From positions 19,197,142-19,261,141 of the forward strand of contig JASSKH010000001.1 in NCBI GenBank assembly GCA_031763025.1: 64,000 nt of DNA, written 5' to 3'. Shown piece after piece: positions 1,291 to 51,425 of the stretch. Below the pieces are notes generated by a model. That model made no database searches, had not been told where the DNA came from, and worked only from the letters and a program-made list of their open reading frames with translations. Source of the stretch: Macrocystis pyrifera. Its lineage: Eukaryota; Sar; Phaeophyceae; Laminariales; Laminariaceae. The position numbers and the translations under genes were made by a program. Each line of letters opens with the position of its first letter. Position 1 is the first letter of the stretch.

Positions 1291-2459
1291 GCGTTTGTGA
1301 GGCGCCAGGTGTAAAAGGAAAGGGTAGGGGAGGACGGAGGGACTGCCAAGGAGAAGATGCCGAATGGCGGCGTCACAAATCGGTTCAGCGCGTTATTCAC
1401 TCGCCCAGTCAAAATGCGTGTATTGCTCGACAGGTTCAATGAACTCTGCCTCTGCCGGTGAGGGTATCTCTGGAAGGGCGGCTGTAGCGCCGGCACGCCG
1501 AGGAACGTCCGGAGGGAGGGTGCCAAGTAAGGGAGCAGGTGTGACCGCATCGGTGGTGGGTCGAATCGGCACTGTCGGCACAGGATCGATGAAGGGCCGG
1601 GGAGAATCCTCTGAAGGGGACGTAGTCCGAGGCGGGCGCGGCTTGTGCGCCGTGGTGGCTGGTCGTGGGACGGTGGGCCGAGTAGAATGCGAACGAGTGA
1701 ATCCATAGTCCACGGCGGTCGAAGGCTTGTCAGCAGTGACCGCTTGGCGATGGCGGGTCCGAGACGAAATGAGCCCCGTCAGGGGAAGGGACGGCAGAGC
1801 CGTCTGTGAATGTGGAAGCAGCAGAGGCGGAGCCACGGGCATAACCGAGACTTGATCACGGTAAATATGGGCGACACGCGAGGCTGGATGATACACAACA
1901 GAAGGTTCCTAGGGACCTGAATCCGTTGGGTGCTCGACTGAGTCGTGCTGGACAGGCCGAGCAGGAGAAAGGGTTTCCCACACTGCTTTGCCGAGGGTGA
2001 CCGTGAATGAGACGGGGACTGCTATAAGGGTAGAGTACGGCGCGTCACCTTCGGTGGGTGATGGGGAAGGCTCGAACGAAGTGGCGCGTCGGCCGGGGTC
2101 CGTGCCTTCATTAGAGGCGAGCAGAGGTGCAACAGGGACTGCGAACACAGAAGAGGCGAGATATTCGCTGGTATATGTGTTGGTAGGAAGGCCCCAGTTT
2201 GGACCTCGCGAAGTGACGTAAGGAGGAGTACGGGCAACAATTTCTCCAGTTGGGGCATTCAGGTCGTTAATCCTCATTCGGGGCCCGTGTTGGTCAAAAT
2301 CGCGGGTCTCGTGTGTCTCGTGTGGGGACAGCGAGAGCCCACCCAAACCGACACGCACGGCGGAGGGTCCGTCCTCGTGTAGGCCGTGACGGCGGATGAG
2401 AAAGACGCGTTCTTCGTAGGACGGAGTGATACTGCTGGGGCCGTCACGGTCGCGCCTTA

Positions 2460-3700
2460 ATGCAGGTAAGGGCAGGCGGGACAGGAAGTCAGCGTTCCCG
2501 TTGGCACTGCCTTTGCAATATTCCACAATGTAGTTGTATGCATGAGAAATTCTAGCCATCGCTGTACCCGCGGGTTATGTTGTGCGGTCTTGTCGAGGCT
2601 TTCGACCGCCTTGTGATCCGAAACAAATCGGAATTTCGAACCCCAAAGGTAGCCGCGAAGGCGCTCGATACTCCAGACGATGCTGCCTGCTTCCAGATCG
2701 AGCGGAGTCCAGTGGCGTTTAGACTCGATTGTAGCGCGGCTGATGAACACCATGGGACGAATGGTGTGGTCGTCCTGTTCTTGTTCGAGGGTGCCACTGA
2801 ATCTGTCCACACTAGCATCGCAGTAGAGGATGAAAGGGCGGGAGTTATCAGTGACAGCGTCCCAGTTAGGATAGACAAGGACCGGGGGCGTGGTCAACTC
2901 GACCAGGAGCTCCCGCACGATGACTTCTATTTCTGGGGTAAAGACTAACTTGACTTCTTTCAGAAAGGAAGTGATGGGCCGTATGAGCTTGGCCATATTG
3001 CACAGGAATTTCCCGCAGTAGGAAAGTGCGCCCAAAATCGACCGTAGCTGTTTCACGTCTTTCGGCACGGGCGTTTTTTGTCTTTGCTTCCACTTTCTGC
3101 GCGTTTGGCATAACGCCGGCTGGAGAGACGGTGTGACCGAGGAAATCCGCATCCGTGGCGCCGATGGTAACCTTTGAAGGAGACAACTTGAGGTTGTGCT
3201 GTCGCAATCGCAAAAAAATTCCTTCATGTTAGCGACGTGGGGGGAGGGATCGGCGTCGAAGATGATGACGTCGTCGAGGTATGCGGCAACGCGGTCGAAG
3301 CCCTTGATAACCTCTTTGATGACTTTGATCAACCAGCCGGGAGCAGCGCTGCTTCCTTGAGGCATAACCAGCGAATATAAGGCGCGTGGGTGTTCGGAAA
3401 GCCGTGGGGAGGGATGGTGTCTTTGTGCACCGGTATATGATGAAAAGAAGAGACGAGGTCGAAGAGTGAGAATATTCGACCTGGGCGAAGCTTGTCGACA
3501 ACCTCGTACACGAGTGGGATGAGGAGCTGGCCAAGGATGCTGAGTTTATACAGCTTCTTGTAGTTCACCGCGACGCGGATACCGCCGGGTATCGTCGGGG
3601 TGACAACCACTGGGCTCACCCAGAGAGGTGTGGAGTGTTGGATGAGGCCGGCGGCAACGAATTTATCCAGAATCGGGTCCACTTGCTTTGCGGTCGGGGG
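2460..3700 (-). pseudogene. gypsy 1 reverse transcriptase and RNase H region
   Basis: The fingers part has GLIQHSTPLWVSPVVVTP and RVAVNYKKL. The palm has IFSLFDLVSSFHHIPVH (motif A) and VAAYLDDVIIF (the YxDD catalytic motif C), and the connection has an FLGHTVSPAGV stretch. RNase H follows with ILYCDAS, the DLEAGSIVWSIERLRGYLWG block, FRFVSDHKA, and the NADFLSRLP stretch that ends gypsy RNase H. Reverse transcriptase copies the element RNA to DNA; RNase H removes the RNA strand. The region is a decayed copy. Confidence 0.92.
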
Positions 3701-4529
3701 ATTGATGCGGTAGGGCCGAGACGTGACAGGAGAGCTGTTCGGGGGAAACAGTTATCTTGAAGGGGAGCGGAAAGCAGGAGCCGCGATCGGTTGGAGACTT
3801 CGAGAACATGTCCGAGAACTGAGCGAGATTATCGCCCAACTGGGTGATTTACGGTTGGCGTCCAACCGAGACCGCGCAAGTCAAATGCGATTTCGCGCAT
3901 GTGCAACGACAAACGTTCCATACTTTTAAAAAGCTCGTGCGTTGGTCTGTGTTCAATCCTTCGAGCAACGCAGGTGAAGGGGGGTGGTTGACAGGCGGAG
4001 CCGAAGGAGTCGCGAATTCTTCGTGTGTCGGAGCTGTCTCGTGGCGGAGATGGTTTCCGAACGGATATAGGCACTGTGGTTGTGAGGGCTAGTCCGTGCC
4101 CATGGCATGGGGGAGAACTGGCCCTGGGACTGGGAAACCAGAGTTCTGTGGGCGTAAAGATGGAGCCGGGGCGTCGAACAGGACAGTTTTCAGGGGAACG
4201 CGAAATAGCGGCCTGGAGAAGATGCCAAGCAAAGCACCTGGGTCTAGATCCGCGACGCCGGCGAATGGATGAGCTGGCGGTCATTTTCTACAATTTGTTC
4301 TTCCGCAGAAAAATCGGTGGCCGCGTGTAGCATGTTGACCGGATAGCAACCGGCGAGGGCATGGGCACCATTACTGCGAACCAAATCGACTTCGACAAGT
4401 CGATGGTCGTGGGACAAAGTGATGCCTGTGTCACCCGCATACAGCAGGTTGAAGCTTTCAGCATGAGCCAACTAATCATCGAGCAGGGAGACAACGTACG
4501 GTAAGAGCAGTCCTGGAACCGTATCTAGC

Positions 4530-4890
4530 TGTCGCGTCGAAGTATCAAGTCGAGTTGCATCGCTTCAGATGGGACGACGTATGCCCATACCGCAAGTGAT
4601 GCAGTTGGTGTATCGCCGTGGAAGAATTGTACGCTTAAGCGTACTGTAACCGTTGTCTCAAGAGGCGGAGATTTACGAAAGCCGCCCCATGACCTGGGAG
4701 GGGTGTGTCGTTCCCAAGTGGCAGAGGCAGCACCCACGCGTTTCTTCTATCCAACGCGCGGGCGTCAAGGAAGATCTGCGGCGAGCCCGTATCGAAAAGG
4801 GCGACACATCCAAACTGAAGCGCAGCTAGGCCACTGTGGATCTTGATTGTGGTGGTAAAGGAAGAGTCGTCTATAGTTACTACACCAGCA
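4530..4890 (-). pseudogene. gypsy 1 retropepsin-type aspartic protease region
   Basis: VALFDTGSPQIFL at about 4764-4802 is the active-site flap of a retropepsin: DTGS with a hydrophobic strand before it. In gypsy elements this enzyme cuts the Gag-Pol polyprotein. It lies between the NADAR domain upstream and the reverse transcriptase downstream, as expected for a protease at the head of Pol. It belongs to the same decayed element. Confidence 0.8.
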
Positions 4891-5173
4891 ACAAGACAAT
4901 GCCCTGGCACAGCGAGCAAGGGGGGGTGCTGACCAGAGCGGGCGACGGGCATTACTTCGAGAAGGTCACCGCCGTGGTCTGGTGGCACGGTTGTGGGGGA
5001 GTCGGGGTATCCCGACGGGAAGGCGGCTGCAGGTGTGTCCGTTGGGCACAGTTGCTGTCGCGTCGAAGGGTCGTCTTCAAAGATGCAGTCTCTACTAGAG
5101 GGCGAGGTGTTCTGAGGAGACCATTGTTGGGGGCGTGTCGGTGGCGGCGCGCGGTCGCGGACGAGACGTCGCA

Positions 5174-5640
5174 CGTTTTTTGCAAAGTCTTGCCCAGCAA
5201 GTATAAGCCGCGCCACAGGGGCGGCTGGCGTGCAGGAATAGTGTGAACCCTGTATCCGATGCCCCGTATGAGGTCGTAAGGGCTAGCTTCCGCGAGACGT
5301 TTGTCGCCTGTGTCCAAGAGGTGGGTTCGTATGGCCGGGTCCGGAGTGAACTTCGCGTAAGAGCCGACAAACACGATATTTTCTCGCTCGCGTTCCCACA
5401 CGGTGAAATCGAAGTTGCGGACTTCGCGTCCATATTGCTTGTGCAGGCGGGGTTGCTTGTGCAGGCGGGGGTCAGACACGCGCATGATGTGTTGTAGGGT
5501 CTGGTGGTCTCTGAAGAGACGACGTTTTTCGGCAGCGAAGACCTGTTCGCCGCAGGAATGAAAGATGCCTTCGACCGTAAAACGGAAAGACGTCCATTGC
5601 GAGAAAAATGAGAGGGGCTGCCAGAACACGATGTCGCGCG
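5174..5640 (-). pseudogene. NADAR (YbiA/DUF1768-like) domain inside gypsy 1
   Basis: About 155 residues in one open frame match the NADAR fold from end to end. They are IVFWQPLSFFSQW at the N-terminus, FTVEGIFHSCGEQVFAAEK (the family's VEHYFQAQK-like helix), LFRDHQTLQHIM, a GREVRNFD block (family: GR.v..Fd..W...R), VWERERENIVFVGSYAKF (family: W...R..iv..g..aKF), LLDTGDKRLAEASPYD (family: LL.TGd..lvEasp.D), GIGY, and LWRGLYLLGKTLQ (family: W.G.N.LG..L). Known NADAR proteins act on ADP-ribose or riboflavin-pathway N-glycosidic bonds and turn up in NAD metabolism and phage-defence contexts. Here it sits on the same strand as Gag and protease, between them, so it is most simply element cargo. It could instead be a captured host gene. 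No activity can be claimed from a fossil. Confidence 0.88.
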
Positions 5641-6425
5641 TGCAGTACTCGTGGGTAGGGTCGAACGCGACGGTATTCTTCCTCGCGCAAGAAGGAGCGG
5701 GGAGTGTGTCAGACACATCCCCTGAAAAGCACTTGGGGTTCTTTCTCTCTGGGGAACAGGCTCCAACCTTCTTCTTGCCTTGCCAGAGCCTCGTTATCGA
5801 GGCTGGGGTGGGAGGCGTGTTCACCAAGACCGGTCATGTTTGCCGTCCCCGAGATTTTTCGGGGAGGGGCAGGGGGCTCCCGACCCGTCCACCTTCACCG
5901 GGTGGGCGAGACATCTGCCATGTAGGCGGGAGGCATTTGAAGTGCGTCCACAGGAAATGGTGTTGTCAGCACGGCCCGGGCGGCACGCGGAGTCTGTTCT
6001 CTCAGATCACTTCATCGTAACTCGTCGGGGTAAGAAGGGGCGCATTTTAGCGCCAAGGGCGTAGCTTCGTTTACGCCCTGTGGGGGATATGTGTCGTCCT
6101 GTCGGAGGTACGTGTTCTCCACCAGCTCGGTGGCCTACGGCGAAACGCCGTGGCTCAAATAAGAATATTCCTCTACGCTCGGGTCAGGATAAAAATCAAA
6201 GCTGACTACACTCCGATCGTCTTATATCAGGGTGCGTAGAGGGAGATTCCGACTAGTCTTGCGTGAGGACCTCGAGCGGAGCACCCGTGTTGTTCTCGAG
6301 TGGCCTGTGTTCCCGTACCCACACCTGAAGGCCACCCTCACACCCTGGGATTTACTCTTGGACATGGTGACTGCCTTAAAAGCTGAATTCGGGGAAGACT
6401 CACCGGAAACAATTACGACTAGTGT

Positions 6426-6735
6426 CGTTTACGCGGGGACCAGGAGTGCCGAGCACACCTGGTGCTTGCGGTGGGGAGGCTACGGCGGCAATAATACGGC
6501 CGTCTTCGCCAGGACCAAGAGTGACAAGCACGCCTAGTGCCGGCGGGGAAGAGCCTACGGCAGCTGGAAGGCGGCCGTCTTCGCAGAGACCAGGGGCGGT
6601 ACGCATACCTGGTGCCGGCGGAGAGAATATACAGTGCCTACGGTCTCACCCCGAAGGCCGTCTTCGCGCGGAGAACAGGGATGGTGCGCATACCTGGTGC
6701 CGGCGGTGAAGGGGCAACGCTGTCGCTGGGGGGGC
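6426..6735. repeat. 73-83 bp degenerate minisatellite in the gypsy 1 Gag-NADAR linker
   Basis: About four units begin near 6426, 6499, 6574 and 6657. Each starts with a variant of GCCGTCTTCGC and carries a variant of CCTGGTGCCGGCGG. Unit lengths are about 73, 75 and 83 bases. The array lies in the roughly 1.5-kb stretch between the Gag-like region and the NADAR domain, where no recognised domain is seen. Confidence 0.8.
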
Positions 6736-7199
6736 GATCGTCAGTGCCTGGGTCAGACGTGCTTTCCGCGAGTGCTATCGGCGAAATGGGAAGGTCAAAC
6801 GTACCGCCGTTGGGCGGTCAATTGGAGCAGAAGGTCCCTGGTTAACGTTCATTAGGGTTGGAGTCACCAGCGGATCCGTAGAGCATATACCCGGGGCCTG
6901 AGGGACAGAGAAAGGCCCCGGGGGAACGCCGTGCTGGGTTGAAAAACCGTCAGCGAAGTAAGCGATTGGCCACCACTTTCATGGCCTCCAACATTACCTT
7001 GTTGGTTCGCGCCACCGTGACAAGACTGACCAGGGTTGGAGTGCCCGTGGTCGTTAAGACGGTTGTTGCCGTAGCGACGAGACGAGTTTTTGTTGCGATG
7101 CGACGAAAGCGACGAGCGTGTGGTTAGGCCGCCTACGTGGGTATGATGGCGGTATGACTGCATGCGGCGCTGCCAGCGGCGGTAGGTTTCGCCGGTTTC

Positions 7200-9690
7200 A
7201 CCAAGTTGGCCTAGCTGTGGGTTGAGACAGTGGCTAGAGTTGGTGAAGGGGGCAGTGCAGGTCGTGATATCCGTGCCATTGCAGTTGCGACAAAAGCCCT
7301 ATATCTGCCTGAAGACTTGGTGCCTTTATTCGGGAGTGGTAAAGGGCGTCCATAATGGAATGTCGTTTGTTAAGAAAGATTTGGATGCTTGAAGGGCCTC
7401 GTCCCAAGCAGTCAAATTAGCAGGCCATTCGACCGCGGACGACAAAAATGGAGCAGAGGAACGAGATGGCGCTGCGACATTCATCACGATTGGGTTGCGA
7501 TATGATACCGATGAGCCTTTAAAAGGCTGAGGCGCGGCCGATCGGCCTTGGGTGTGACCGCTATCATGCGAATTCAACGAAAGACCCGCGAGGAGTGGAA
7601 GCGTAACATGTTTTTCGCCGTTGATGGCGGCAGTCATATTAGTAGAAAGTCCACTAAACGCCAACCACATGTCGTCGATAGACCCAAAAAGCTTCGACGC
7701 AGTCGCTAAATATCCCGAGTACAAAACCGGCATGAGGATCGAGTACTGCTCGCTAACGCTATTACGAACAACTTCTAGCACAACCTCAACGCCTGGGGCC
7801 AAGCCCTGGTCACTGTCCGTAATGTACGCTATCAAGAAGCAAAAAGACCGAGAATAGTCGGCGAAAGGCGTCTTGGTGGCTACCCCAAACGAATGGAGCT
7901 TCGTCATGGCGGCACATCGGTCGCCATGATCGAGGTGGGAGCTGATGAGGCGGAGTAGCAGCTTGAAGGCGTCCGGGCCGCTGGCTCCTTTCAGAAAACT
8001 CCGTTTCACCTGCCGAAAGAAAACGTCGAAAGTGTCGGTGAGGTCGAAGGTATAAGGTTTGTCAGATGTGATGGCTCTTTGAACGCATTTGCGAAGTAGG
8101 AGTTCACACCTGGGGACCCAAGACTGGGAGTCTACCCCGGCATAGAATTTGTCGTCACATCGTACTAGAATGTCTGCTGCTGCGAGTTTGACACTACGTG
8201 TCAACTGGTGGACTGCGTCGGGTTTGTCGAGAGCTGCGTAAAACGGCATAGGTGTGATACTTTCGATTTTGTGGACGTTGATGTTGGCATAAGCACGCTT
8301 TACGGCAGCATCGTGGGCCGCGTCACTCTCTCCTGAGATGGCTTTGACGGTAGCTTGACGCACGTGCGCTGTCGTCGAAGACAACGGGAGTGCGCGGTCG
8401 TCGGTGGCTGGTTCACCACGTGACAGTCATCGAGAAGGGAAGGAACCACTTGCCTGGGTGTTTGCAGCTGGGTAACGTCCGGGTTGGTGTTGTTGGCGTC
8501 TGCTGTGGCAGGGGTCGAGGGCTGGCGAGGGCCCTTGCCCAAATTGCGAGACATAGGTCCCGATGAGGACGGGGTGCTCCGCGAGGACGGGCTGTGAGAG
8601 GAGGCGCCGCCGATCCGGCAGCGACGACCCTTGGGGTCGACGCCGCGCGGACCGCGTTTGCGGGCCATGGTGGGGTCGGTGGCGGGGAGATCGCCGTCCT
8701 GCCAGGTGCGGGTAGGTACGGAGTGTTGACGGGTCTTGCGTAGGGCCAACAGGAGGTCGCAGGCCCTATTGATTATCGCCGTTGGGAACGAAGCGTCGGG
8801 GTTCGTTAGTACCATGTGCAAGGCCCCCATTGGGAAAACGTCCGTAAAAGCCAGCATTGAGCGAGCGACCCGCGACGTGCACCACCTTAGCGTGCTCCGG
8901 TCGGAAGGCGGTTTGTGTGTGCCTGGCGATGGTTAAATTCAGCAGGTGTACGAAGGCAAAGTCGAAGGCAGTCGGTGTGTAGTTGAAGGGGCAGGCCGGG
9001 ATGCCGGGCGAGGGGAGCGGAAGCGGTGGCGAAGGCTTATTGGAGCGCAGTCGCTCCAGCGCCTCACGGTCGACTAGCGTCTTGGCCTTGCGTGATTTCT
9101 CCCGAGCGTAGATAGCGGTCGCCTGAGCGCGTTCGGCAACGTCGAATTGCTTACGGAGGTGAGAGACCTCGGCCGCGGTGGACTTGACGGCCGATCTGCA
9201 GTCGTCGTCGGTGGACGAGGCGCCTTCAACTTTGGCGCGAAAAACCTTGTAAACGGCCGCTTTTTTGGCGGCAGCGTCCGCGGCATCGGCGGCCTTACAG
9301 GTTAGCCGAGTTGCTGCCTCGCCGGTGACGAATTTGTCCCGCACGTGGGGCGGGAGCTCGGCCCAGATTTCCATGGACATGGAGGCGTTGAAGCTGGTGG
9401 GGTTAGGGGGCAGACCAGACTGATCCCGTACGGCCCCTGCCGTAGTCCTTGACGGAACCGTGGTGTTCCCCGCCGTTGTCCGAGATGGCGTGGAAGGGTT
9501 GTCAGCAGCTGGGACTGGTGCCGATGCGACATCCGGCAGTGACTCGTCCTCTGTGTGCAGGTCGAAGTCCGGCCCCTGACTCGGTTCCGCCAGGGCCGGT
9601 GGTTCGGCGTCCTGAGAGACACAGCAGAGCGGAACCTAACACGCAGCCACAAGAGGTAGGGAAAGGACGAGGTTGTTGCCAGCACCAGCG
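7200..9690 (-). pseudogene. gypsy 1 Gag-like region
   Basis: The right part (about 9380-8940) reads on the minus strand as an alanine/lysine-rich, likely coiled-coil segment (ADAADAAAKKAAVYKVF, then RKAKTLVDREALERL). A serine/proline-rich basic linker follows (MARKRGPRGVDPKGRRC). The left part (8384-7326) is a 350-residue open stretch with helical content typical of retroelement capsids (DTFDVFFRQVKRSFLKGAS, KLLLRLISSHLDHGDRC). A cysteine cluster near 7300-7240 (GFCRNCNGTDITTC) may be a degenerate zinc knuckle. Gag forms the particle. The assignment rests on position upstream of Pol more than on motif matches. Confidence 0.65.
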
Positions 9691-12005: not shown

Positions 12006-13489
12006 ACAACTCTTTTATTATTACTACTAATAGGCGCAACCGAGATGTCACTATGATACGAGGGCATACTGAATTCAAGTTGTTCTTCAGGCACAACAAC
12101 AACAAAAATAGTAGTAATCGGAGCTTGTGCCGACGCACGAGCTGTGCGTCGGACACGTCGTACATCTCGCGCGGACGAATATGAAAGAGTAAGTCTCGCA
12201 TCAGCTTCACAACGAACGGAACGGTCGATGAGAGACGAGTCAGGCGACAGGCAGTCGCCCGAGGGATGCATGTTGTGTGCCTGCAAAAACGCGGCAGCGC
12301 GTCTTGTCTGAGCGGGTACCAGGGCCAAGCGCGGTTACAGGGGGAACAACTGTGCCTGACTCGGTTGCCATGAGCGGAGGGAGAGGTGAGCACGAGGACC
12401 GAACGTCCTCGGGTCCCACCTCACTAACATATAATCGTGCATCGAAACTATCCGTGTTCATACTAGAAATACAGGGCGCTGCATGAAGGGCGTGGAAGGA
12501 ATGAGGGGTGCCGAGCCGATCACGGAACAAATTACTCGGTGTTTCAGCGTGACGGACATCATACACCCGAGAGAGGCTCGGCCGACATTCCTGCTGCGCC
12601 CAGAACTGAGCCGACTGCCCGGAGTGACGTTCTGGGGCCAGAGCGCTTGTCGCTGTGTCGGGCCTGACAGTGGGCTGCAGAGTCGAATCAGCGGCAAGCA
12701 TGAGAGAAAGGAACGGGGGTCTACCTGTTGCGAGCAGTGACAGAGGGGCTGTGGAACGACCGAAATCAGTAGCAGTGACACAGATGCTGGATGTGCCAGC
12801 AAGAAAAAAACCAGGCAGACCGGGAGAATACGAAAAATCCCCTGCGTCGCGCGGACCAACAGCGCGTGAACCTATAACGGCTGTCGCATCAGTCTCACCG
12901 CCGGAAGCGCTGGGGAAGCGGCAGATATCATACTCTCGAACGCAATCACCAAAAGGAGAAGACAGTAAAAAAAAATAGCAAGAAGTCGAAAAGACAGACT
13001 ACAAGAGCGAAAAAACAGACTGCCGGCGAAAAACTAAAATCAGACCTTGAACAGATGCCGAAAGCGTCTAGTCGACGACGCCAGTGTTAAGTGTTAAGGC
13101 CGTATGGACCTAGGGACCGACTGCTGCTAGAAGGTGGATGCCTTTGGCTCTGTTCTGGTAACTTACACGAGGTGCTTCACGTTGGTAAAAGCTCTTGTAC
13201 TAGTTGCTGTTTGCCTCGCCAGATTCCTTCCGAACGAAGTGGCGAGGCGCTCATCAGAAAACCAGGCGACAACGCCTGCCATGTGTGATGAGGGGACGAT
13301 TGCTACAAACCATAACGCCGCAACAGGGGAGAGGGTATTACGCCAAAAAAGGACAAAAAATGTGCTAAACGTTCCCTTCGGACACAAAAACACACAAGTT
13401 GTCGTTCTGGTGATTCTATATGCCAGGTAATGTAATATATAATAATAGTACGTATATTATTTCTCCCACCATATTAAAATGAATACCGA
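12006..13489. other. No recognised gene
   Basis: Several overlapping open frames of 100-150 codons exist on both strands (minus 12701-12240 and 12859-12458; plus 12655-12978), but none has a recognisable domain. The plus frame ends in a basic, proline-rich tail with a KKPGRPG stretch that resembles an AT-hook. The minus frame from 12859 starts with a hydrophobic segment. They overlap each other, so at most one could be real. I see no splice or promoter pattern that decides. Confidence 0.3.
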
Positions 13490-17602: not shown

Positions 17603-18480
17603 GGGCAAATGCCAAAATCAGGTATACCTGATCCGCTTGAGCCAAAGTCAGGTACATTCTAAAACCAAGTAAAAAACGCGCGCCACGAGCGGTGTGATGT
17701 CCATGACAATCCGGAAAAAAAACGAATGCGCCTAAAAGCACAAAGCGTGCCACATTGCTTCTAAAATCTGAATTGTTTTGTGTTCTTCACGGTGTAGGTA
17801 CCACGGACTCCACTTGGACCTGTAGAGAGTAATTATTAATACACTTCGTTTGTTTGGCCACAGCGGGAGCGCCAAGAGTATTTACTCTGGCGCCCCCCCC
17901 CCTCGTTTACAGCTTTAAAGCTTCCAGACCGTCCTCGCGGAACCGCCTGCTCGGCACAAAATTATCTTGCCGTACCAAACCTGAGACCACCTCGACGCGG
18001 GGTGGTGCAGACGAAACGCCGAGTGTCCATGGTGCTGTAAAGATTGCTGTGAACATAGAAAACAACAGAGTACACAACAACAAACCGAAGCACATCGCAC
18101 ACCCCAAAGGAGCAAAAGTGAAACCAGCGTACGCATGTATGCATGTATATACATACGTGCTTTTACGTACGACGTATGAGTACAGAGTTTATACGTCAAT
18201 ACAGAAGAATTTCAACCGAGGGAGGGCAGACGCATACGGAAAGAAAACACAGTGTACGTATGGCCTCTCTGATTGGTTCATAGTTCGATAAAATCAGTTG
18301 AAAGCTAGACAAGGTAGAGGTAGAAAAAACCAGGTGTATCTTGGCCTTTTCGTGCCAAAATCAGTTACAATGTCAGCTTGGCCAATAGCAGGGCTCCTAA
18401 TGTGTGTTTTGTACTGATTTCGGTATATAACTGTTTTTGGCACGAAAGTGGCCAGGTATACCTGATTTTGGCAAAAACCC
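17603..18480. mobile_element. Mutator-like MITE, copy 1, with 9-bp target site duplication
   Basis: The 878-base element starts GGGCAAATGCCAAAATCAGG and ends with the reverse complement of GGGTTTTTGCCAAAATCAGG. The terminal inverted repeats are about 28 bases, differing at positions 4-7. The inner part of each, CAGGTATACCTG, is itself a perfect 12-base palindrome. Flanks TTTCAATGA (17594-17602) and TTTCAATAA (18481-18489) match in 8 of 9 bases: a 9-bp target duplication. TIRs starting GGG with a 9-bp duplication fit Mutator-like elements. No transposase is encoded, so it needed one in trans. Further CAGGT motifs near 18330 form subterminal repeats. It shares its full length with copy 2 at 21774-22662. 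Confidence 0.85.
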
Positions 18481-18494
18481 TTTCAATAATGTAG

Positions 18495-21773: not shown

Positions 21774-22662
21774 GGACGAATGCCTAAATCTGGTATACCT
21801 GATCCATTTGAGATAAAATCATATGCATACTAAAACCAAGTAAAAAATGCGCGTCACGAGCGGTGTTATGTCCATGGACATTCGGTAAAAAAAGAACGCG
21901 CCTAAAGCTTTAAGCGTGCCGCATGGCCTCCGAAATCTGTATGGTTTTGTTTTTTTTTAAGGTGTACGTACCACGGGCTGCACTTGGACCTGTCGAGAAT
22001 CTCTATTAATGTGCTTCGTTTGTTTCGCCACGGCTTGAGCGACAAGAGCATTTACTCTGGCGCCTCCCCCCCGCCGTTGACAGCTTTCAAGCTTCAAGAC
22101 CGTCCTCGCGGAACCGCCCGCCAGGCACGAGAATATATTGCCGTACCTAAGGTGAACCTCGACCCGGGGTGGTGCAGACGAAATGCACTGCTGTGACCTT
22201 GGTGCTGTACAGATAGTTGTGACCATAATAAAAAATAACAGAGTACACATCACTACTGTAACTGAAGCACATCGCACACCGCAAAGAAGAAAAAGTGAAA
22301 CCAGCGTACGCATGTTGTATGCATGTATAAATTGTACCTTTAGGTACGACGTACGAGTATAGAGGTTATACGTCAATACACAGTCGAATACCAACCCACA
22401 GGGGAGGGCAGATCCATACGGAGAGAAAAAACAGCAGTGTACGAATGGCCTCTCTGATTGGTTTCAAAGTCGGCCAAAATCAGTTCGAAGCTAGACAGAG
22501 CAATAAAGGTCAGGTATACCTTGGCCTTTCCGAGTAAATCAGGTACGATGTCAACGTGGTCAAAAGCAGGGCTCCTGGCGTGTCTTTTGTACTTGCGTTT
22601 AAGTATCTGATTTTGGCCGAAAAGTGGGCACATATTATTATACCTGATCTGGCTAAAACCCT
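21774..22662. mobile_element. Mutator-like MITE, copy 2, with 9-bp target site duplication
   Basis: This 889-base copy matches copy 1 (17603-18480) along its length in the same orientation, for example AGACCGTCCTCGCGGAACCG and GTGAAACCAGCGTACGCATG. The left end reads GGACGAATGCCTAAATCTGG; the right end is the reverse complement of GGGTTTTAGCCAGATCAGG. Flanks TTGTTTTTT (21765-21773) and TTGTCTTTT (22663-22671) match in 8 of 9 bases. The two copies have drifted at many sites, so the insertions are not recent. Confidence 0.85.
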
Positions 22663-22671
22663 TGTCTTTTT

Positions 22672-26555: not shown

Positions 26556-29500
26556 ATGAGGATGTCAAGTACGGCGCAATCATCGCTCCTGCTCGGGGTA
26601 ATAGCAGGATGCTTTGTGACAGAGGCAGCGAGAAACAGGATAACGGTCAAAAAGTACAAGACGAACCACAGGATCGACTGGTGGGATGACGGTCGCGATG
26701 AGCCTTACCGAGTGACGTTCTGGAAGTTCGGCTTAAAGTCGGTCTACCTTTTCGGGGCATCGGGAAATTTGAAAAGCCTCACGGCCCGAGATAGGGAGTT
26801 CACCTTTTCCTCCGACATCGGGTCGAGGATGCTTCTCTCGACTGACGAAAATGAGATCGTACAAGGTGTTCACTCCAGCCGTCGCCGTCTCTTTCCCTGC
26901 ACCGACTGTGCGGAGACATGGGACACGTTGTGCGACGTAGGCCTAGCGAACGTGTGCTTCTTTCACGAGTTTCCGCTGGAAGATTTCAACAGTGATGCCA
27001 ACGATTCGTTGAGGAGGATGTGCAATGCGTTTGGAGCAGCGTGCGAAACGTCCGCGTTCGACACATGTCAAGGGCAGTGCATTGCAGGTGAGTTACACGC
27101 GTATAATGCGACGCCTCGCTTGATAGATCGACCATGGATGGCGTTTCCCGCACACAATGGTTACGTGTTTAGAACTGTCCCTTATGCGTTGCGGACTTCC
27201 TCCGAAACAACAATTCCCTAACTCCTGTACGGGCACCCGTCTTCCATACCGTGCCGTACTCTGCTCTTCGACCACCTGAAACGTGTTATTCAAGGGCCTA
27301 CATCCGAGCCGACACCAGCTCCGACCCCCGAACGAACTCCAAATCCTACAGTTGAGCAAGAAGGTGAATGATGGTACAGTTGGGTAAAGATGCAGAATTT
27401 TCCCGCATTTGTTTTCTGGTTTGAGTTGATGTCCCTCCTTCACTCCCGAGGGTGGGCGCCCATGGAAAACACTTGTATACAAAGAAAATCAAGGCGACCA
27501 GAAGTTCAACCGCGACTTTCAATTTTGTCTGTCATCACCGAAAATTGTAACTCTGGAGCAACAATGTGTATGGTGCACGTGAGGCCCCCGTCACCGTCCC
27601 ACACCCACTAAGAACCTTGGTTTTATACCCGCAGGCGCATGCAACCCCAACCCTTGCGAGAATGGAGGTTCCTGCACCATTGACCCTGCTGGGGGGCATG
27701 TGTGCTCCTGCGCTTCTAACTATGGAGGTCTGGCCTGCCAAACGGAAACATCATGTGAGGGCCACCGGTATTGATGATGCAGCAGACACTGTATTTGAGA
27801 GTAGAATCGGGGAGAAATTGGCGGTTTCTTCACAAAACCGATGTAGCTGTGCCTTTCACGCCAGGCCAGTACCACCCCATGATCAACAAACGTAACGAAA
27901 TTACAAACACCCTGAACTAATCTTTCATGTTTGCTCATGAACGCGTGAAACGTTTATCCGCCCACGTCACAGCGTTGGACCCTTTTTACATCGAGATCGA
28001 CTTTGTTGGGACTTGGACGGATGAGCGCAGGGCCGTTTTCCAATCTGCTGCTGGCAGGTAATTGCTGTTTAAATTCAAATGTATAGGGTCAATGACTGCC
28101 TTAAACCCAATTCCACTGAAGTGATCTTGCGCTACAGCAGCCCCAAGTGTGTCGTGAGCACAACCGTTTGTGAAGTTCCAAAAGGAATGACCAGGGCCAT
28201 GTGCACCTTGCGCCACCAGCGACTTAAATCTCTTGTTGTGACTGGTAAGTCTTCACAATCTAAGGGATTGTATCGCATTGGTGTATCTTCGTTGGTCCAC
28301 TGTCCGAACCGCATGTTGTTGGGTGGGCGTTTCACAACACCATGTCGTGTGTCACCTGCTACAATCACTTGCATTGGTTGCCCGAGCGGTACTAATGTGA
28401 AACACCGCAGGCCCAAATCATCCGTACGTGCAGCGTCGAGTCCATCATAGGAGGGTTGATCTACGGTACCAGGTAGATATTTCGTGTAGCTGGAGCGTAC
28501 ATTTATCCCGTCCAACATTTTCGGCATTCTACAGTACGGAGCCGTTTCGCCCCTATCGAAAAACCATTCCCTACACTGCTCGACCAGGTGGTCCGAGGTT
28601 ATCACCCATGTGCCTTGTGGAGGAAGCGCCGACTTCCCGGCTGGACGTCTCCTTATCAGCTCTACGCTCGAGGGTATCGACGGTGTCGGTGGAACTCTTG
28701 GCTCCGCTGGTCCCTCGCAGATTTGGAGCGCATGCCCAACAATCAGCGTTCTAGGGGACATGCGCTTTGACATCGACGACGTTTCCCGCTTGGAGGCAGA
28801 CAACTTGTTCGAAGGGGTTATTTTGCACGAAATGGGACACGTCATCGGTGTCGGGTACGTAAAGTGGTCGTTTTACGCAATAATACAGCGAGCATGATCG
28901 ATCTATCAAATATACACTTGGCATATCAAACAAATGCAACCAGCCGGAATATAAATGAAATAATAGGGCCTTAGTCTCGAAATCTGAATGTGCCTCATGG
29001 ACGATACACCCATGAACGATAATGGTAACTCTGGTGATGATAACACCCCGTTTGATACACTGCTACTCTCGGAGCCGGGAAACATCGACGCTGCCGATGT
29101 GTCACAGAACTGGTGCACAAGCCGCAGAACCTTGCAGGAAACTCCCGTGTATATGAAATCTGCCGATCTATAGTGCAATACACTGCTGTATCGATTTTGT
29201 GCCATGTATACAGCCGGACACAACTCATTCTGGAAACGCCAGGGCAAAGTCCCCGTATGGACACTTTAACGACGACGCATTAACAAATGTGCATCTCTAG
29301 ATATCAATAGTGGCCGTTTGGCATCGATGTATGACTTTCTGCAAGATGTACGAGGACTTGTCAACTCCATGTGTGGAACATAGTTGCGACAAGCACACGG
29401 GGTTTCATTTGTTTATCAATGATGATACTTTGTACATAATTCATGCTTTATTTATCCGGATCCGGGGAGAAAAAAAACACACATGGTTTCTGGCGCATGC

Positions 29501-39087: not shown

Positions 39088-41348
39088 GGTCTGAGGTTGT
39101 TACTTGTGATGAGAAAACTCGGATTTCCAGGCTGAACCTCACCTTATCAGCGCTACGCTCGAGGGCATCGACGGGGCTAGAGGAGTTTTAGGCTACCCCG
39201 GTCCATCCCAAGATTAAAGCTCATGTCGAACTATGAGCCCCTAGGGAGTATGCGGGTTGGCATCGATGACATCGCGAACGTGGAAGCGAACGACACGTTT
39301 ACGGGAGTAATCCTGCACGAAATGGGACACGTCATTCGTGTCGGGTACATTTCCCGAAATAATTACGGACAGAACTCAGAGGGCGAGCTTCATCAACCAA
39401 GTCTTAACCTTGGACGTAGGTTGACTACACTATGTGTAAAATAATGTAGACCCAGGCAAGATTGACACATATTTCCTAAGCTATAACGGTACGAACGGTG
39501 TAGGTTAAACCACGTACCATACACCATTGTTCAGGACTCGTTCATGAGAACAATGCTTCAGAGCGGGGACACAGAGGCGCGTGGTTTGACATACCCAAAT
39601 ACTATGTGTAAGTTACAAGCCACAGAAGCGATGATGTGTACGTTACAAGCCACAGAAGCGATGACATTCAAGAAAGGCAGCGCGAAGCAGCTCGCTCTAG
39701 AAACACCAGCTGAAATGTCAGCGTTGAAGCAGGGTTCCTGTTTTGACCCTTAAACGTGGATGCTGAAAATGTTACACACTTATAACGGTCATATCAAGGT
39801 GACCGGCTGTATGTTGCACAAAGTGCGCGAAAAACGTTGCGTGTTTGCTCGAAACACTATGCGCATGCGAACGGGCTCTCTCATACTTGTCTCCTGTATT
39901 TCGCTCAGACTAGTACGTTTATGCGGGAGCTACATGGCACCGCTTCTATGGCATCCTCGCTACGCCACTGAACAACACTACGGAATATTGCACATAGCTT
40001 TTATTGTGCATATATCGTGTGCCTTCATCGGGGAAACAACTTAGGCGAGTGAACAACTTTCCACGACAACGCAGACCCTTCCTCGGCGTGTCCCGCTGCC
40101 GTGAGCGCCTACAACGATGTTGGCGGCTCTAGTACTGAGGTCGACGAGTTGACCGTATCAGCCGGTATGCGACACAGCTTGTCTACACAGCAGATAAGCG
40201 CCAATGATGCACTTGAATCATTGGAACTGGGCACAAGTCTACTTTGTGTTTAACTCTCGACAGTGGTCTTTTGATATCCAGGTGTAGTTGACTGAAATGG
40301 CATAATTTGACAGCCTACTAGGGCACCAACATATGATGGAGGCGGACTTGGCATCATAAACACCTTGAGATTCGCTTGAGGTCAGCAATTTTGACCAATA
40401 CCCCCATTGTGGCACGGAACGCAATTTCTGCTGTGTTGCATAAGTCGTAATCACCAGCTGGGACCACCTGGACGAAACCCTTTTAGCTGATGACCAGATA
40501 CTTCAACACTGTAAGTGGGTGTTGCTAACCGATTTCTTATTTCGGCTCGAAAATTCCACTGTGCGCCCCTGGCATTGCTTCGCTAACCAGAGATGTGTGT
40601 CGGGATAAAGGACTAACGTGAAACCCGTGTGAAATTATTAACATAGTTTTTAATGCGTCTACTAATCCGCTATCTGTTGACTTCGGTACGTATCAACACT
40701 TGAATTGAGGGGCATACTATAGTCGTGTCTTCGAAGTTTCTTCTCTCTCTTGCATGTTGCGTATTTCAGAGGCAAACGGGTCGAGGTAACAATACGTCGT
40801 TCGCTGTTTTGACTCTAATCTATTGCAGGTGGTGACCCTGTTAAGAATGACAGCAGCCATTCCAAACGATGTCGAATACATCGACAACGCAAGCGCGGCA
40901 AGTTCAGGAATTGTGTACAAAGCCGGCGAGATTTGTTATGTCCCGGGACTCTCACCATTTACTGTCGCATGCATATATATATATATATCACTCGAGGCCA
41001 TGCACACCCGTGTAACATCACGCCGTGTCATCAACGCGAAACATCACGAAGTAAACTATTGACAGCTGTCTGGAGCTAAATTCCTCAGTGGACATGTAAC
41101 AAAACTGGACGAGGAATGCGCATTGTAACAAAAGGCCGGTTTCTGCAGCCTCTATCTGCCGGGGCTGTGGCGCACATTCCACCGATGGTATATATGTTCT
41201 TTCCCAATGTCGAAGCGACGACCATACTCGCCCTCGAACCCAGTCCTAAACTGTTCGCAGCCTTTGTTATCCGCGACGCACGGCGTCACTTGCTTCGTCT
41301 TCTTCGTATTTCCCCAGGTGGGCACACGCGCTGTGTCTTCTGAGCGTG
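39088..41348 (+). pseudogene. Decayed second copy of the metallopeptidase gene (exons 5-9)
   Basis: Matches to the intact gene at 26.6-31.4 kb: exon 5 at 39088-39344 (EANDTFTGVILHEMGHVIRV), exon 6 at about 40041-40164 (CPAAVSAYNDVGGSSTEVDE), exon 7 at about 40449-40512, exon 8 at 40829 onward (RMTAAIPNDVEYID), and the 31-base exon 9 at 41318-41348 with both splice sites kept. Signs of decay: a frameshift near 39147 and an in-frame stop before the zinc motif, a TGA where exon 6 has a Cys codon, and loss of the AG acceptor before exon 7. HExxH survives, but the family's G-V-G after it reads R-V-G. Exons 1-4 are absent. The last exon may be the fragment at 49.97 kb. Confidence 0.85.
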
Positions 41349-41736: not shown

Positions 41737-41809
41737 TGCACAGGTATACTAACGGTTGAGAGCATCATGTTAAAATCATCTGACATTACCATGAAATGTT
41801 TCTCCCTAC
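41737..41809 (+). repeat. Dispersed repeat R, copy 1 left part (split by gypsy 2)
   Basis: It starts ATGCACAGGTATACTAACGG and continues after gypsy 2 at 47205-47270. It matches copies at 48215 and 48392-48520. The split is exactly at gypsy 2. Confidence 0.8.
41806..41809. repeat. gypsy 2 target site duplication, left (CTAC)
   Basis: CTAC precedes the left LTR and is repeated at 47205-47208. The unoccupied paralogous repeat near 48450 has one copy of the corresponding four bases (CGAC) at the same place, which supports a 4-bp duplication. Confidence 0.8.
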
Positions 41810-42040
41810 TGTAGCCAAAAGATACCAAGCCGTGGAGGTTTCAGTGTAATCGCATGTGTGAGTGGAGCAGTGGCCGGGGATCCTGTGTGATGTCCCCTAG
41901 CCACCTGGCTCGTGGTCCGTGAGGATCACTCCGTGATAATACAAGCTCTAAGAACAAGACTTACTGAGTGCGAGGCCAGCGAGACTGGTGGAGTCCCTCG
42001 CTGGAAGCCCTCTTGCTGATATCATCTGGCAGAGGCCATA
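41810..42040 (+). repeat. gypsy 2 left LTR
   Basis: It starts TGTAGCCAAAAGATACCAAG and ends GGCAGAGGCCATA, 231 bases. Its ends are only partly inverted (TGTAGCC against TATGGCC). It would hold the promoter and the RNA start. It differs from the right LTR by one indel. Confidence 0.93.
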
Positions 42041-42247
42041 ATATCTAGATAATCGCGGAACTTCTGTTGGAGGAGTTTTCGGCTGCGGAGTATTGGGTCA
42101 CAGCTGGGAAGGCAGTTGGCCCGTTGGACGGATCGAAACGGCTTGAAGCGCACAGCAGGGGAGGACGCTCCGGGAGCTGGAGGACGCACAGGTCAGGCGG
42201 CAGTTTCTCCGTTATTACAGTAGAGTCCAGGTGGACTGCTGTGGATT

Positions 42248-43080
42248 ATGGCGCACACGGCAAGCACGCCGCTGGTGGTAGGGGAGTCTCTGACTCCACC
42301 GAAATACGGAGAGGTGTGGACCGAGCAGGCCTCTCGTGTTTTTTTTTACGCAGCGTACCTCGATTATGAGGAACGGCTGCAGCTCGCCAACGCTCAGGGG
42401 GTGGTTCAGCACTCCAAAGTGAGCATGGGCCAGCTTATCCCCAATTACATTCATCGGTGTTTTGAGGGATTTTACAAGCATCAGACTACGATGACCGCCT
42501 CGGAGTTGTTGGACGCTGTTAGGCAGCACGCCGGTTACACAACCACCAGCAACAGATTTGACACCTCGCGGGCGGCAGCGGACTTGCGTCGCGTTCTCTC
42601 AATGAGGCGCGATGAAAAGCAGGGCGGTGAAACATCCGTCAAAGACCGCGCGATGATGGTAAACTCCGCTATGGAAAAGTATTTTGCGGAGAATCACGCG
42701 GTGCATGCCATGTACCGCGCGCAGGACCGTTCGTGGTTGCCCGGACCGGCGGAATTTGTGAGCATGACGTTGGTGGATGGCTTATGGCCGTCCGAGTTCA
42801 AAAAGTACGTAAAAGGTCAGCTCACGTACGCTGCAGGGTGGAAGAAGGACCCGGCATTGGTCATGGACCAAATTTTTTCTGCTGCAGAACAGTGGAAATT
42901 CATCGAGGCGTATGGTCGGAAAGATGCTGCAGGGGCAGCTGAACCGCGACGCCAACAGCAGCAGAAACCGAAACAGCAGCAGTCCGCGAAAAAGTCGTTT
43001 GTTCGCGTCTGTTTCGAGTGTGGTGATCCCAACCATTATGTTTCTGATTGCCCAAAAGCTCGCGGTGGCGGCACAGCTCC
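42248..43080 (+). CDS. gypsy 2 Gag region with zinc knuckle
   Basis: The start at 42248 gives MAHTASTPLVVGES. The capsid-like part (about residues 20-230) is helical with tryptophans (DRSWLPGPAEFVSMTLVDGL). The nucleocapsid part has the zinc knuckle CFECGDPNHYVSDC (CX2CX4HX4C, 43010-43051), followed by a Gly/Arg-rich RNA-binding tail. Gag packages the element RNA. It is fused in frame to the protease. Confidence 0.9.
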
Positions 43081-43589
43081 CAGCAGTGGTGGGCGCGGGT
43101 CGTCAGGGTATCGCGGGGGCCGCAATGGCGGCCGGGGCAGATTCAACCATGGACGCGGGCGCGGTGGCCGTGGTGGCAATCAATTGACAGCGGGCGGTGG
43201 AACTTCTGCTGTTGCTTCTTCAACTTCTGGTGCGCCAGCGGCAGGAGCCGCTGGGTCGGGATCTGGTTCGTCTGTTGCCGGCCGAGCTGTATACGTTGGA
43301 GGAGCTGGAACATCGGTGGGTGCTGCTGGAGCGAGAACTTCGCCATCCACCGAGCGGGCGGAGTCAGTGTCTGGTGCTGCTGCAGGGGCGGTAGCGCCGG
43401 AACCGTCTGTATATTCGACGTCTTGGTCGGGGTGGACCGCCGATTCTATTTCTTCGGCGCCGGCTGTAGGAGGGCAGCCATGGCGTCAGGTGACTCTTGG
43501 TACCGACCAGAGTTCAACGGCAGGTGAAGTGCCTGTCGATCGCAGCGCTGAGTGTTTACGCGCTGATCTCTCTTTGCCAGGGTCGGTTG

Positions 43590-43910
43590 GTTCGCTGATG
43601 GCGCGTGTGATCCTTGATTCGGGGTCGGCGCTCACGTCCATCGGTGTCGGCTTACTTCAGCAGCTGTCTTCGCATTTCGGCGGCGCCGATCTGCAAATTC
43701 CGTTCGAAAATGGCCCGCAGCAGGCGAAAACCGCTACGGGTGTTTCAGTGATGGTCACGCACAAAACGGTGCCGATTGCCGTGAGTGTACGGACGCCGTG
43801 GGGAGCGGTGAAATTGGAGCCCATCACTTTCGCGGTCATGCCTGGTACAGATAACGTCGTTCTGTTTGGCATGGCTACCATGAAAGCTCTTGGCATCGAC
43901 GTCTACCGTG
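43590..43910 (+). CDS. gypsy 2 aspartic protease region
   Basis: ARVILDSGSALTSIG near 43600-43644 is the retropepsin active site (DSGS). A hydrophobic-hydrophobic-Gly stretch (NVVLFGMATMKALGIDVY near 43855-43908) fits the C-terminal part. It lies between Gag and RT on the same strand. Confidence 0.85.
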
Positions 43911-44409
43911 AAGCTCTGGAGAAGCTTCGCCCTCGCGCAGTGCCGGTATCGACCGGTGTGGAGACTCCGAGTTACCTTGCGGCGCGCAGAGTGACGGTTT
44001 CCGTGCGTGCTTTTCAGACCGAGGCTACGGTGGATGCTCCGGAGGACAAGGCGGTGGAACATTTGGTCGACCGGGGGCCAGACATGTTCATGGATCCGGA
44101 GGAGGAGCGGACGGCCCGAGAACGGGCGTTGGAGGACAGCGTGCAGCAGGCAGAGCAGAGTGGATTAAGCGTCGGCGGAGCAACCCGTTTGCGCGAAATT
44201 TTGGCTCGTCGCGTGGGTGCTTTTCGCCGTGCGCTGTGTGGTGATCCGCCAGCGCAAGTGGAGCCGATGCGAGTGCAGCTGAAGCAACAGGCGAAGCCTG
44301 TCAAGGCAACGCCACGTCGGTACGAACCGACAAAAAGGGACTGGCTCTCGAAGTGCATTGCTGCTTTGGTGTTTTTTTGGCTTTGTCTACCACAACATCC
44401 AGGCGGTGT

Positions 44410-45640
44410 GGGCGAGTCCGGCGATGGCGGTGCCCAAGAAGGACTCTTTCCGTTTGGTGAGCGACTACTCGGCGGTGAACGCACAGGTGGAGAAGTCCCC
44501 GGGCGTCATGCCCAACCATGAAGACATGGGAGATCTGCTGGGGGCGCGTTTCTTCGGCAAGCTGGACCTACTTCAAGGGTACTGGCAGATGCCTTTGGCT
44601 CCGGAGGCGCAAGACGTCTTCACCATGGCGACAAGCGACGGTTTGTTCACGCCTACCCGTGTTCCCCAAGGTGTTTTGAATGCGACTTCTTATTTCCAAG
44701 GTGTCATGACTGAAGTGTTGCGTGGTTTGGATTGCAAAGTTTGGGTCGATGACGTTTTCTTTTTCGCAGACACCGAAGAAGCTCTTCTGCAGCTGCTTGA
44801 TGACATTCTTGAACGCCTGGAGAATGTTGGACTGTTTGTCGCCGCCCACAAGTGTACCTTCTTCTCTCGTGAACTGGTCTGGTGTGGTAAGGTGTATTCC
44901 AATGGTGTCGTGTCCCATGACCCCGCTCGAGTGCAAGGTTTAAGTGAAATGCGTCGTCCCGAAAACGCTGGAGAACTAATGCAATTCTTGCAGGCTGTCA
45001 ACTGGTTGCGTACATCGTTACCACGTTTAGCGGAAACGGTAGCACCGTTACGTGATTTTTTGGAGGAGCTCCTTGTTGGGGCTACACGTCGGACTAAGCG
45101 AGTGGCGCGCAATCGTGTCATCAAGGATACCGCGTGGACGGAGGATCGGGTGCGGGCGTGGAATGCCGCACGGGGTTTGGTGGCGCAAGCAGTGCCGCTT
45201 CATCATCCTCGTCCCGGGTGCGTTGTTTTGATGTTTCCTGACGCTTCTGATTTCCATTGGGGTAGTTTTCTCACCCAAGTGCCTGAACACGAATTTCGCA
45301 GTGGATTGGCGTTGGAAAGCATGTCTCACGAGCCTCTCGGATTTCTGAGTGGTTCGTTCACAGGTTCGCAGTTGCGCTGGGCGACTGTCGACAAAGAAGG
45401 TTTTGCGATCGTTAATACGTTCCGGAGGCTCGAATACCTGCTTTGGGGTGGTGTTCATATCTTTACTGATCATCGAAACTTGCAGTACATTTTCAATCCG
45501 GAGAAGTGTGTCACGACGGTCACAAAGACCATGGCACAACGCCTAGAGAATTGGAAGGGTGTTTTAGGACAATACCGCTATGCAATCGAACACATCCCTG
45601 GCGATCGAAACTGTTGGGGGGATCTGTTGTCTCGTTGGGT
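44410..45640 (+). CDS. gypsy 2 reverse transcriptase and RNase H region
   Basis: RT blocks: MAVPKKDSFRLVSDYSAVN, FFGKLDLLQGYWQMPL (motif A), FTPTRVPQGVLNATSYFQGV (motif B) and CKVWVDDVFFFAD (motif C, VDD). RNase H blocks: VLMFPDASDFHWGS (first Asp), WATVDKEGFAIVNTFRRLEY (Glu) and HIFTDHRNLQYIF (second Asp), ending with NCWGDLLSRW. All catalytic acidic residues are present. Confidence 0.93.
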
Positions 45641-45879
45641 CAAAGTTCCTACGGTGCCTGTTCGTTCGGTTGCCGTGCACAGCCCATGTAATGCTGACGA
45701 TTCGCTTCCCGCATTGGATGTGATTCGTGCCTCGCAACAAAGGTCTGTCGCTCGTATCGGCGTTGGTGTTCATGAATTTTCGACAACCTTCGGTCAAGCT
45801 ACCTTGGCCGATGATGGTTTGTTTCGTGTGCGTGTTGGGGTGCGTGACGTCTTGTGGATTCCGCCGGATGATCTTGCTC

Positions 45880-46955
45880 TTCAAACTCGTTTGATGGTGT
45901 GCGCGCACATGCGCTCGGCTGGTCACCGTGGTGTGGCGCCGACTTTGTTTCGCCTGAAGGAATATTGTGTTTGGCCTCACATGGATTCTCAGGTTCGCGA
46001 ATTCGTTCGCCAGTGTTTGCACTGTGTAGACACGCGTGCAGGTGCACTCATTCCTCGTCCCTACGGAGACACGGTGCATGGTACCGCTCCGGGAGAAGTG
46101 GTGCACTTTGATTTTTTGTATGTTGGCCACAGCGGGCCCGAAGGTAGCGATGGCCTGCCTGATGAGGATGGTTTCCGATATGTTTTGGTCATCATGGATG
46201 ATTTGTCCAACTACGTGGCGTTGGAACCGGCCGAGGCTTGTACAGCCGAGGTCACAGCGAAGCATTTGCTAGCCTGGTGTAAGACTTTGGGGGTGCCGCG
46301 TGTGTGGGTGAGTGATACCGTCACGCATTTCAAGAACAGGGTGCTTGCTTTGTTGAGCGACGCGTTGCACATCGAACATCGTTTTGCTGTCGCTTACACG
46401 CCGTGGTCGAACGGTACGTGTGAACGCATGGTAAAAGAGGTGGTACGTGCTCTGCGTTCCATTCTGTCAGAACAGCGTCGTCAGGTTTCGGAGTGGGTTG
46501 ATGTTTTGCCGGCCGCTCAGTGGGCCTTGAACACTTCGTTTCGTGAACGTTACCGAAGCACTCCGTACAGCGTGATGTTTGGGCGTGCTCCGCGTACCGA
46601 TTTCTCGGCGCTCGTTTCTGAGTCTGATGGCAGGTGGAATGTTGACGTGATGAATGCTGACTTGTTGCGTGCGAACGTCCGTGAAGTCGTTGCAGAGCAG
46701 GAGAGATTTTGCGCCGATATTCGCGCAGCTGTTGCCGTGTCTCGCGACAACAAACGTAAACAGGCTCAGGGCCAGGTGGTGTTGCCAAAATTTGCGGTTG
46801 GTGATTTCGTGTTGTATGCTCGTGTTCGTCGGCAGGGTGTCACACCGAAATTGTTGTCCACATGGACTGGTCCGTGGCGTGTGGTAGCAGCTGATCATGA
46901 TCATGTGTACTCAGTTCAGAACATCGTTTCTGGGAAGGTGCATCGTGTCGAGTGA
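45880..46955 (+). CDS. gypsy 2 integrase region
   Basis: The N-terminal zinc-binding part shows a histidine pair (HMRSAGHRGVAP) and CLHC. The catalytic triad is visible as VVHFDFLYVG (Asp), VWVSDTVTHFKN (Asp) and NGTCERMVKEVVRAL (Glu). A GPW-type module (STWTGPWRVVAADHDH) close to the C-terminus matches the GPY/F module. The frame ends at 46955, just before the right LTR. Confidence 0.92.
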
Positions 46956-46972
46956 ACTCGCTTTGGGGGTGC

Positions 46973-47204
46973 TGTAGCCAAAAGATACCAAGCCGTGGAG
47001 GTTTCAGTGTAATCGCATGTGTGAGTGGAGCAGTGGCCGGGGATCCTGTGTGATGTCCCCTAGCCACCTGGCTCGTGGTCCGGTGAGGATCACTCCGTGA
47101 TAATACAAGCTCTAAGAACAAGACTTACTGAGTGCGAGGCCAGCGAGACTGGTGGAGTCCCTCGCTGGAAGCCCTCTTGCTGATATCATCTGGCAGAGGC
47201 CATA
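46973..47204 (+). repeat. gypsy 2 right LTR
   Basis: It is 232 bases and identical to the left LTR except for one inserted G in the GGTCCGGTGAGG stretch. It is followed by the CTAC duplication (47205-47208) and by the rest of repeat R. Confidence 0.93.
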
Positions 47205-47270
47205 CTACGTATGAATTAATGACTGTGGAAAATTTTACACTCACAGTTACAGCAGCAGACTCGTGGCAAC
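47205..47270 (+). repeat. Dispersed repeat R, copy 1 right part
   Basis: It continues the repeat interrupted at 41809. It shares TTACAGCAGCAGACTCGTGG with copy 3 (48499-48518). Confidence 0.8.
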
Positions 47271-51146: not shown

Positions 51147-51425
51147 TGTTCGGAGTGCTCACGTACTTGGTGTATGGATTCATGTGTAACGGTATTTGGG
51201 AGTTCCACACAGGAAATATGCGTGTTTCTGTGTGGAACGGTCAGCGGGTTGGGACGTATCTTATCCGCCGCTTTCTCCCTTCTTCTTCTTGTTGTGTGTG
51301 TACTTCATGTTCTCACCCTTTCTTCCTTGTCTTGTGTGTTCTAAGCGATATTATATATATACCCTGGAGGGGCTTCTACGAACTGACTCAGGCTTGGCCT
51401 ATCATATCAGTGAGTGCATCGAACA
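51147..51425 (+). repeat. copia left LTR
   Basis: It starts TGTTCGGAGTGCTCACGTAC and ends GTGCATCGAACA: TG...CA ends as usual. 279 bases. A TATATATATA stretch near 51352-51362 could be a TATA element. Confidence 0.95.

Follow-up and report, generated by a model that had tools for sequence, protein, structure and literature searches.

A decayed Ty3/gypsy element of Macrocystis pyrifera belongs to a lineage whose Pol begins with a conserved NADAR domain, a probable ADP-ribosyl hydrolase

Computational analysis of a 64,000-nucleotide stretch of the Macrocystis pyrifera genome (GCA_031763025.1, contig JASSKH010000001.1, forward-strand positions 19,197,142 to 19,261,141; termed here the window) was directed at a Ty3/gypsy retroelement on its minus strand, the Pol of which begins with a NADAR domain. 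The domain occupies positions 5177-5626 (Pfam PF08719, E=7.8e-31; score 108 bits, cut-off 35.1), and the match spans residues 70-219 of a 293-codon open frame at 4952-5833. An earlier note, made from the letters of the window, had recognised a NADAR domain here; the profile search bears it out, and all the motif blocks that it listed are present in the translation. The closest solved structure by sequence is the P. nicotianae NADAR with bound adenosine diphosphate ribose (ADP-ribose), PDB 8bau (E=3.2e-12), while Escherichia coli YbiA (2b3w) reached only E=0.081. The predicted model of the window domain (predicted local distance difference test score 88.5) matches the fold of 8bau with E=4e-9 and a template modelling score of 0.77, and that of YbiA with E=8.8e-5. 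The domain can be placed in the YbiA type by the glutamate, in lieu of aspartate or histidine, in the last strand at the position of 8bau E125, which is E182 in the window frame.

The 293-codon frame is not intact Pol. Positions 5833-5182 mostly follow the Pol frame except for a 1-nt gap near 5808, and the last ~75 residues are out-of-frame sequence owing to a 2-nt insertion at approximately 5181-5182, at the end of NADAR, which was recognised by comparison with another, open-frame copy. Within the domain, an in-frame 18-nt tandem duplication (approximately 5453-5470, from sequence and alignment) adds residues that are absent from all 13 of the other alignment rows, and a 3-nt deletion lies near 5626.

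Within the element a Gag-like region precedes Pol; NADAR sits close to the Pol start, and the protease motif, reverse transcriptase (RT)/ribonuclease H (RNase H) and integrase regions follow it, all on the same strand. The protease region (4462-5093, frame broken) was delimited by tblastn of another copy (78-79% identity); it gave no Pfam protease match, and its retropepsin-type identity rests on the FDTGSPQ motif in the translation. The broken RT core was mapped to approximately 3137-3601 from the RVT_1 match of an open-frame copy, L033, and RNase H to 2541-2849 (RT_RNaseH E=1.3e-25, residues 233-335 of the frame 2457-3545), while a broken integrase region homologous to the integrase pieces of L033 runs towards the window edge (36-1120, upper limit approximate). 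The Gag-like region (6821-9635) was assigned by position and homology (tblastn 77% identity at 6909-7736; DNA 83% identical to L033 over 6501-9445), and no Pfam Gag family matched it. The earlier placement of NADAR between Gag-like and protease regions stands on the protease side by a downstream motif, and on the Gag side by position and homology.

Most of the 5' long terminal repeat (LTR) lies at 13084-13338 on the minus strand and pairs with a 3' LTR at C189:19194850-19195104, about 2 kb to the left of the window (86.7% identical; 34 differing sites over 255 bp; Kimura two-parameter distance 0.148). Stretches similar to the putative LTR adjoin five other copies, which raised doubt on its identity; it was nevertheless accepted because the TGG primer-binding-site-like stretch TGGCGTCGT directly after the 5' LTR (13075-13083, minus strand) is common to copies L036, L038 and L060. 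No target-site duplication was seen in the element flanks inspected. The order protease-RT-RNase H-integrase typical of Ty3/gypsy is obtained by combining the window copy with copies L032, L033 and L034, as no single copy gave Pfam matches for all Pol parts and the protease was identified by motif; the 255-bp LTR pair and the TGG after the 5' LTR complete the assignment.

The window element is an old, dead copy. Its Pol is 88.3% identical to that of L033 over 5922 aligned bases and carries 18 frame-shifting gaps and 8 stops, approximately 26 disabling lesions or 4.4 per kb, a count which leaves out one frame-shifting gap at the extreme end and the natural stop (raw 19 gaps, 9 stops). The suggestion of the earlier note that NADAR had been kept open while the remainder decayed did not hold. 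One lesion was seen in the 467 bp of the domain where about two were expected (P of one or fewer = 0.39), the changes private to the window NADAR (17 non-synonymous and 7 synonymous; normalised 0.74) come close to neutrality, and the phosphate contact W133 is Arg in this copy, in place of the Trp of 27 of the 31 family-a copies described below. Special preservation of NADAR in the window copy was accordingly rejected, and its open frame is what chance allows.

It is the other copies in the 537,376,219-base assembly holding the window that reveal the standing of the domain. At least 137 matches to the window protein were found (134 of 1455 candidates scored), and they were split by score and identity, not by tree, into families a and b (~47-83% and 43-51% identity over the matched stretch, respectively), with a few rows fitting neither clearly. 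The family a Pol frames of L032 (at least 2165 codons) and L033 (2016 codons) carry NADAR, then RT, then integrase, with NADAR at residues 129-277 in L033; RNase H gave no Pfam match in either open frame. The second, diverged family b has the same NADAR-first layout, and in the 1696-codon frame of L034, which gave no integrase match, NADAR is followed by DTGSPQTF, RT and RNase H. Retention was counted over 51 family-a-like protease places, being the first 51 of 150 rows. At 45 of these NADAR matches on the same strand, upstream by a median of 229 nt; reading of the upstream DNA at the other six disclosed a NADAR stretch with an apparently broken frame in four, loss of the first part of NADAR in one and loss of NADAR by deletion in another, so that a NADAR stretch is present upstream of 49 of 51 places in all. 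A one-off insertion, which the earlier note had named as one outcome that would undo its reading, is thus rejected, with family b carrying the domain at the same place. A compact LTR-NADAR-LTR family was likewise rejected, since the four copies inspected (L011, L022, L036 and L038) do not resemble one another, and L061 and L062 yielded no 5' LTR. No stand-alone host NADAR gene was separable among the 150 places scored of 1225 candidates, which were not inspected singly and many of which coincide with element copies. Beside the open L033, the part of the protease region at window 4791-5070 recurs once more upstream of the Gag-like region, at L060 550-829.

Selection and the ligand pocket were assessed on 54 of 58 loci (31 of family a and 23 of family b), three duplicates and L031, which lacks a NADAR match, having been dropped. 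In family b the pooled ratio of non-synonymous to synonymous polymorphism (pN/pS) was 0.444 for NADAR (23/23 copies usable) vs 0.438 for RT (21/23), with 0.471 for RNase H (18/23) and 0.674 for protease plus linker (16/23); NADAR in family b is hence as constrained as reverse transcriptase. In family a, NADAR variants shared by at least two copies gave 0.324 vs 0.905 for singletons, a contrast that fits selection during element replication, ending after insertion. The median pairwise ratio of non-synonymous to synonymous divergence (dN/dS) of NADAR was 0.40 in family a (442/465 pairs) and 0.44 in family b (247/253), and between the families dN was 0.38 with dS saturated at ~2.4 (649/713 pairs). 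NADAR is a standard, selected part of this element lineage, and the claim of the earlier note that the element carried it as an accessory domain is upheld by its constant place and by purifying selection.

Residues of the ADP-ribose pocket named in PMC11543638 were mapped onto the 54 copies through the 8bau alignment. Kept were E43 in 52 copies, K50 in 51, K75 in 54, R79 in 51, W89 in 52, R93 in 53, E125 in 53, D130 in 53 and W133 in 50, the misses being substitutions, stops or gaps, and the single miss at E125 a gap. The predicted ADP-ribose pocket is, by this alignment, mostly conserved across copies.

The lineage extends beyond Macrocystis. Four proteins of Ectocarpus sp. CCAP 1310/34 (P0040, P0046, P0049 and P0050) combine NADAR and RT, with RNase H-like domains in three of the four, and the NADAR of L032 is 64% identical to that of P0049. 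In a NADAR tree of 45 rows, a single branch (support 81/85, not starred) sets the 25 element-labelled rows, Ectocarpus among them, apart from the rest. These rows comprise 10 copies of this genome, the 4 Ectocarpus proteins and 11 metagenome rows, of which four (P0001, P0022, P0039 and P0044) hold the protease motif LLDTGSP and the others were labelled by similarity alone. In the RT tree, family a, family b and Ectocarpus form three groups within one lineage, the RT being 54-74% identical to the Ectocarpus NADAR+RT proteins vs 25% to another gypsy, a comparison in which Gypsy-12_Ec32 was not included. The pattern fits a single acquisition of NADAR, perhaps of bacterial origin, in a common ancestor of these lineages.

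Overall, the window element is a dead member of a Ty3/gypsy lineage, likely brown-algal, in which the NADAR domain at the front of Pol would probably act as an ADP-ribosyl hydrolase on molecules of the element. NADAR would be translated within Pol, might then be released by the element protease, and would work in the cytoplasm or in the particle, where it would take off ADP-ribose attached by host transferases to element RNA, complementary DNA (cDNA) or proteins; beyond conservation, each step of this mechanism is inferred. That the domain is a working enzyme in live copies appears quite probable. Its target could be the nucleic acid of the element itself, a proposal that we hold tentatively, and the narrower version in which Pol NADAR strips host-added ADP-ribose from guanines of element RNA or cDNA is rather doubtful. 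An eraser acting on element RNA, cDNA or proteins is favoured because guanine in DNA can be freed of ADP-ribose in vitro by NADARs, one of them of YbiA type (PMC11543638, PMC11125620), and because an orchid Gypsy element with an m6A (N6-methyladenosine) demethylase provides a precedent. Several observations weigh against it. The Y84 position is Phe in 53 of 54 copies and D86 is not kept (Leu, Cys and others), and adenosine binding may consequently differ. In L033, although its frame is open, Asn takes the place of K50 and the match to the RNase H of L034 covers only 33 residues, from which it follows that an open frame does not mean a functional one, and the frames of L032 and L033 need not be complete. 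The shared-versus-singleton contrast of family a is lacking in family b NADAR (shared 0.533, from 14 non-synonymous and 8 synonymous; singletons 0.406, from 98 changes), and between L033 and L034 NADAR diverges more than RT (55% vs 72% identity). Furthermore, E. coli was not rescued from DarT1 by YbiA or phage NADARs (PMC11125620).

Other roles for the domain were weighed against the same evidence. NADAR could be a binding module and not an enzyme, docking on ADP-ribosylated chromatin, damaged DNA or nucleic acid and thereby aiding packaging or target choice; the phosphate and distal-ribose residues of the pocket are kept and chromatin-reader domains are described in all four Ectocarpus Gypsy lineages (PMC12477816), but the glutamates E43 (52/54) and E125 (53/54) are kept as well, which binding alone need not require, and we regard this role as improbable. 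Slightly less probable still is action on host nicotinamide adenine dinucleotide or riboflavin-type metabolites, altering host metabolism or stress signalling: a stress-induced Ectocarpus NADAR protein raised stress tolerance in Arabidopsis (PMC7922944), yet the location within Pol suggests that the domain is delivered together with the enzymes of replication. That protein, Esi0017_0056, holds NADAR at residues 132-291 of 391 (PMC7922944) and may be a domesticated Pol start, because this position resembles residues 129-277 in the long Pol frame of L033. The decay and near-neutral private changes of the window copy would agree with a neutral passenger or one-off insertion, a reading that is scarcely credible and already refuted for the lineage by the 49 of 51 copies, the presence in two families and Ectocarpus, and the RT-like constraint. 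If Pol NADAR indeed strips host-added ADP-ribose from guanines of element RNA or cDNA, it would be implied that brown algae use ADP-ribosylation to defend themselves against retroelements.

The remainder of the window holds further repeats, and Rfam at gathering thresholds gave no match anywhere in the window. On the plus strand, a young Ty3/gypsy element at 41809-47207 has 236-bp terminal repeats 99.2% identical and two overlapping open frames, one of 765 codons with a zinc knuckle and one of 890 codons with RT-RNase H-integrase, and gave no NADAR match. A young Ty1/copia element at 51147-59372 (plus strand), with matches to RVT_2 and integrase core, has 280-bp terminal repeats that are 99.3% identical and, at 54109-54819, proline-rich frames that contain a tandem repeat. 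A plus-strand frame at 28490-28897 shows a HEMGHVIG metallopeptidase-like motif and a weak Peptidase_M10 match (E=0.0072, below cut-off), with a diverged DNA copy at 39103-39348, and a direct repeat of ~0.9 kb, 78% identical, lies at 17608-18482 and 21779-22663.

The fixation of an additional domain is regarded as a rare event in LTR elements (PMC9289625) and is a sign of hidden conflict between an element and its host, and the copies described here allow the direct question of whether ADP-ribosylation is used against retroelements. Among known systems, the Phalaenopsis Gypsy with an AlkB m6A demethylase (PMC9289625) is likewise a Ty3/gypsy element with a fixed domain that erases a nucleic-acid modification, but the enzyme is another one, sits in an additional open reading frame and has in vitro activity shown. 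The P. nicotianae NADAR (8bau) and E. coli YbiA (2b3w) have the same fold, and most of the residues listed as contacting ADP-ribose in 8bau recur here; they are not within a Pol, and differ from the copies here at the Y84 and D86 contacts and, for the window copy, at W133. The Tx1 long interspersed nuclear element (LINE) of Crassostrea gigas, with NADAR in its first open reading frame (ORF1), resembles the present case as a NADAR in a retroelement; it is a LINE and not an LTR element, and is called divergent in PMC12477816.

The closest likeness is to a Gypsy lineage of Ectocarpus in which NADAR opens Pol (e.g. Gypsy-12_Ec32), described in 2025 (PMC12477816), besides which a limited literature search found no report of NADAR in LTR elements. 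Here too NADAR lies in the N-terminal region of Pol, and the NADAR+RT proteins of strain CCAP 1310/34 group with the present copies. The genome is 537 Mb vs the 200.2 Mb assembly of PMC12477816 and holds at least two families, and a Pfam scan over the final 216 residues of a single open Pol gave no match for the putative C-terminal chromodomain of the Ectocarpus lineage. By sequence, the window element is a further member of the NADAR-Gypsy kind already reported from Ectocarpus, to which this analysis adds a further genome, a retention count, selection relative to RT and the pocket. RT-like constraint on NADAR, which was not found in the portion of PMC12477816 consulted, speaks for the importance of the domain to the element.
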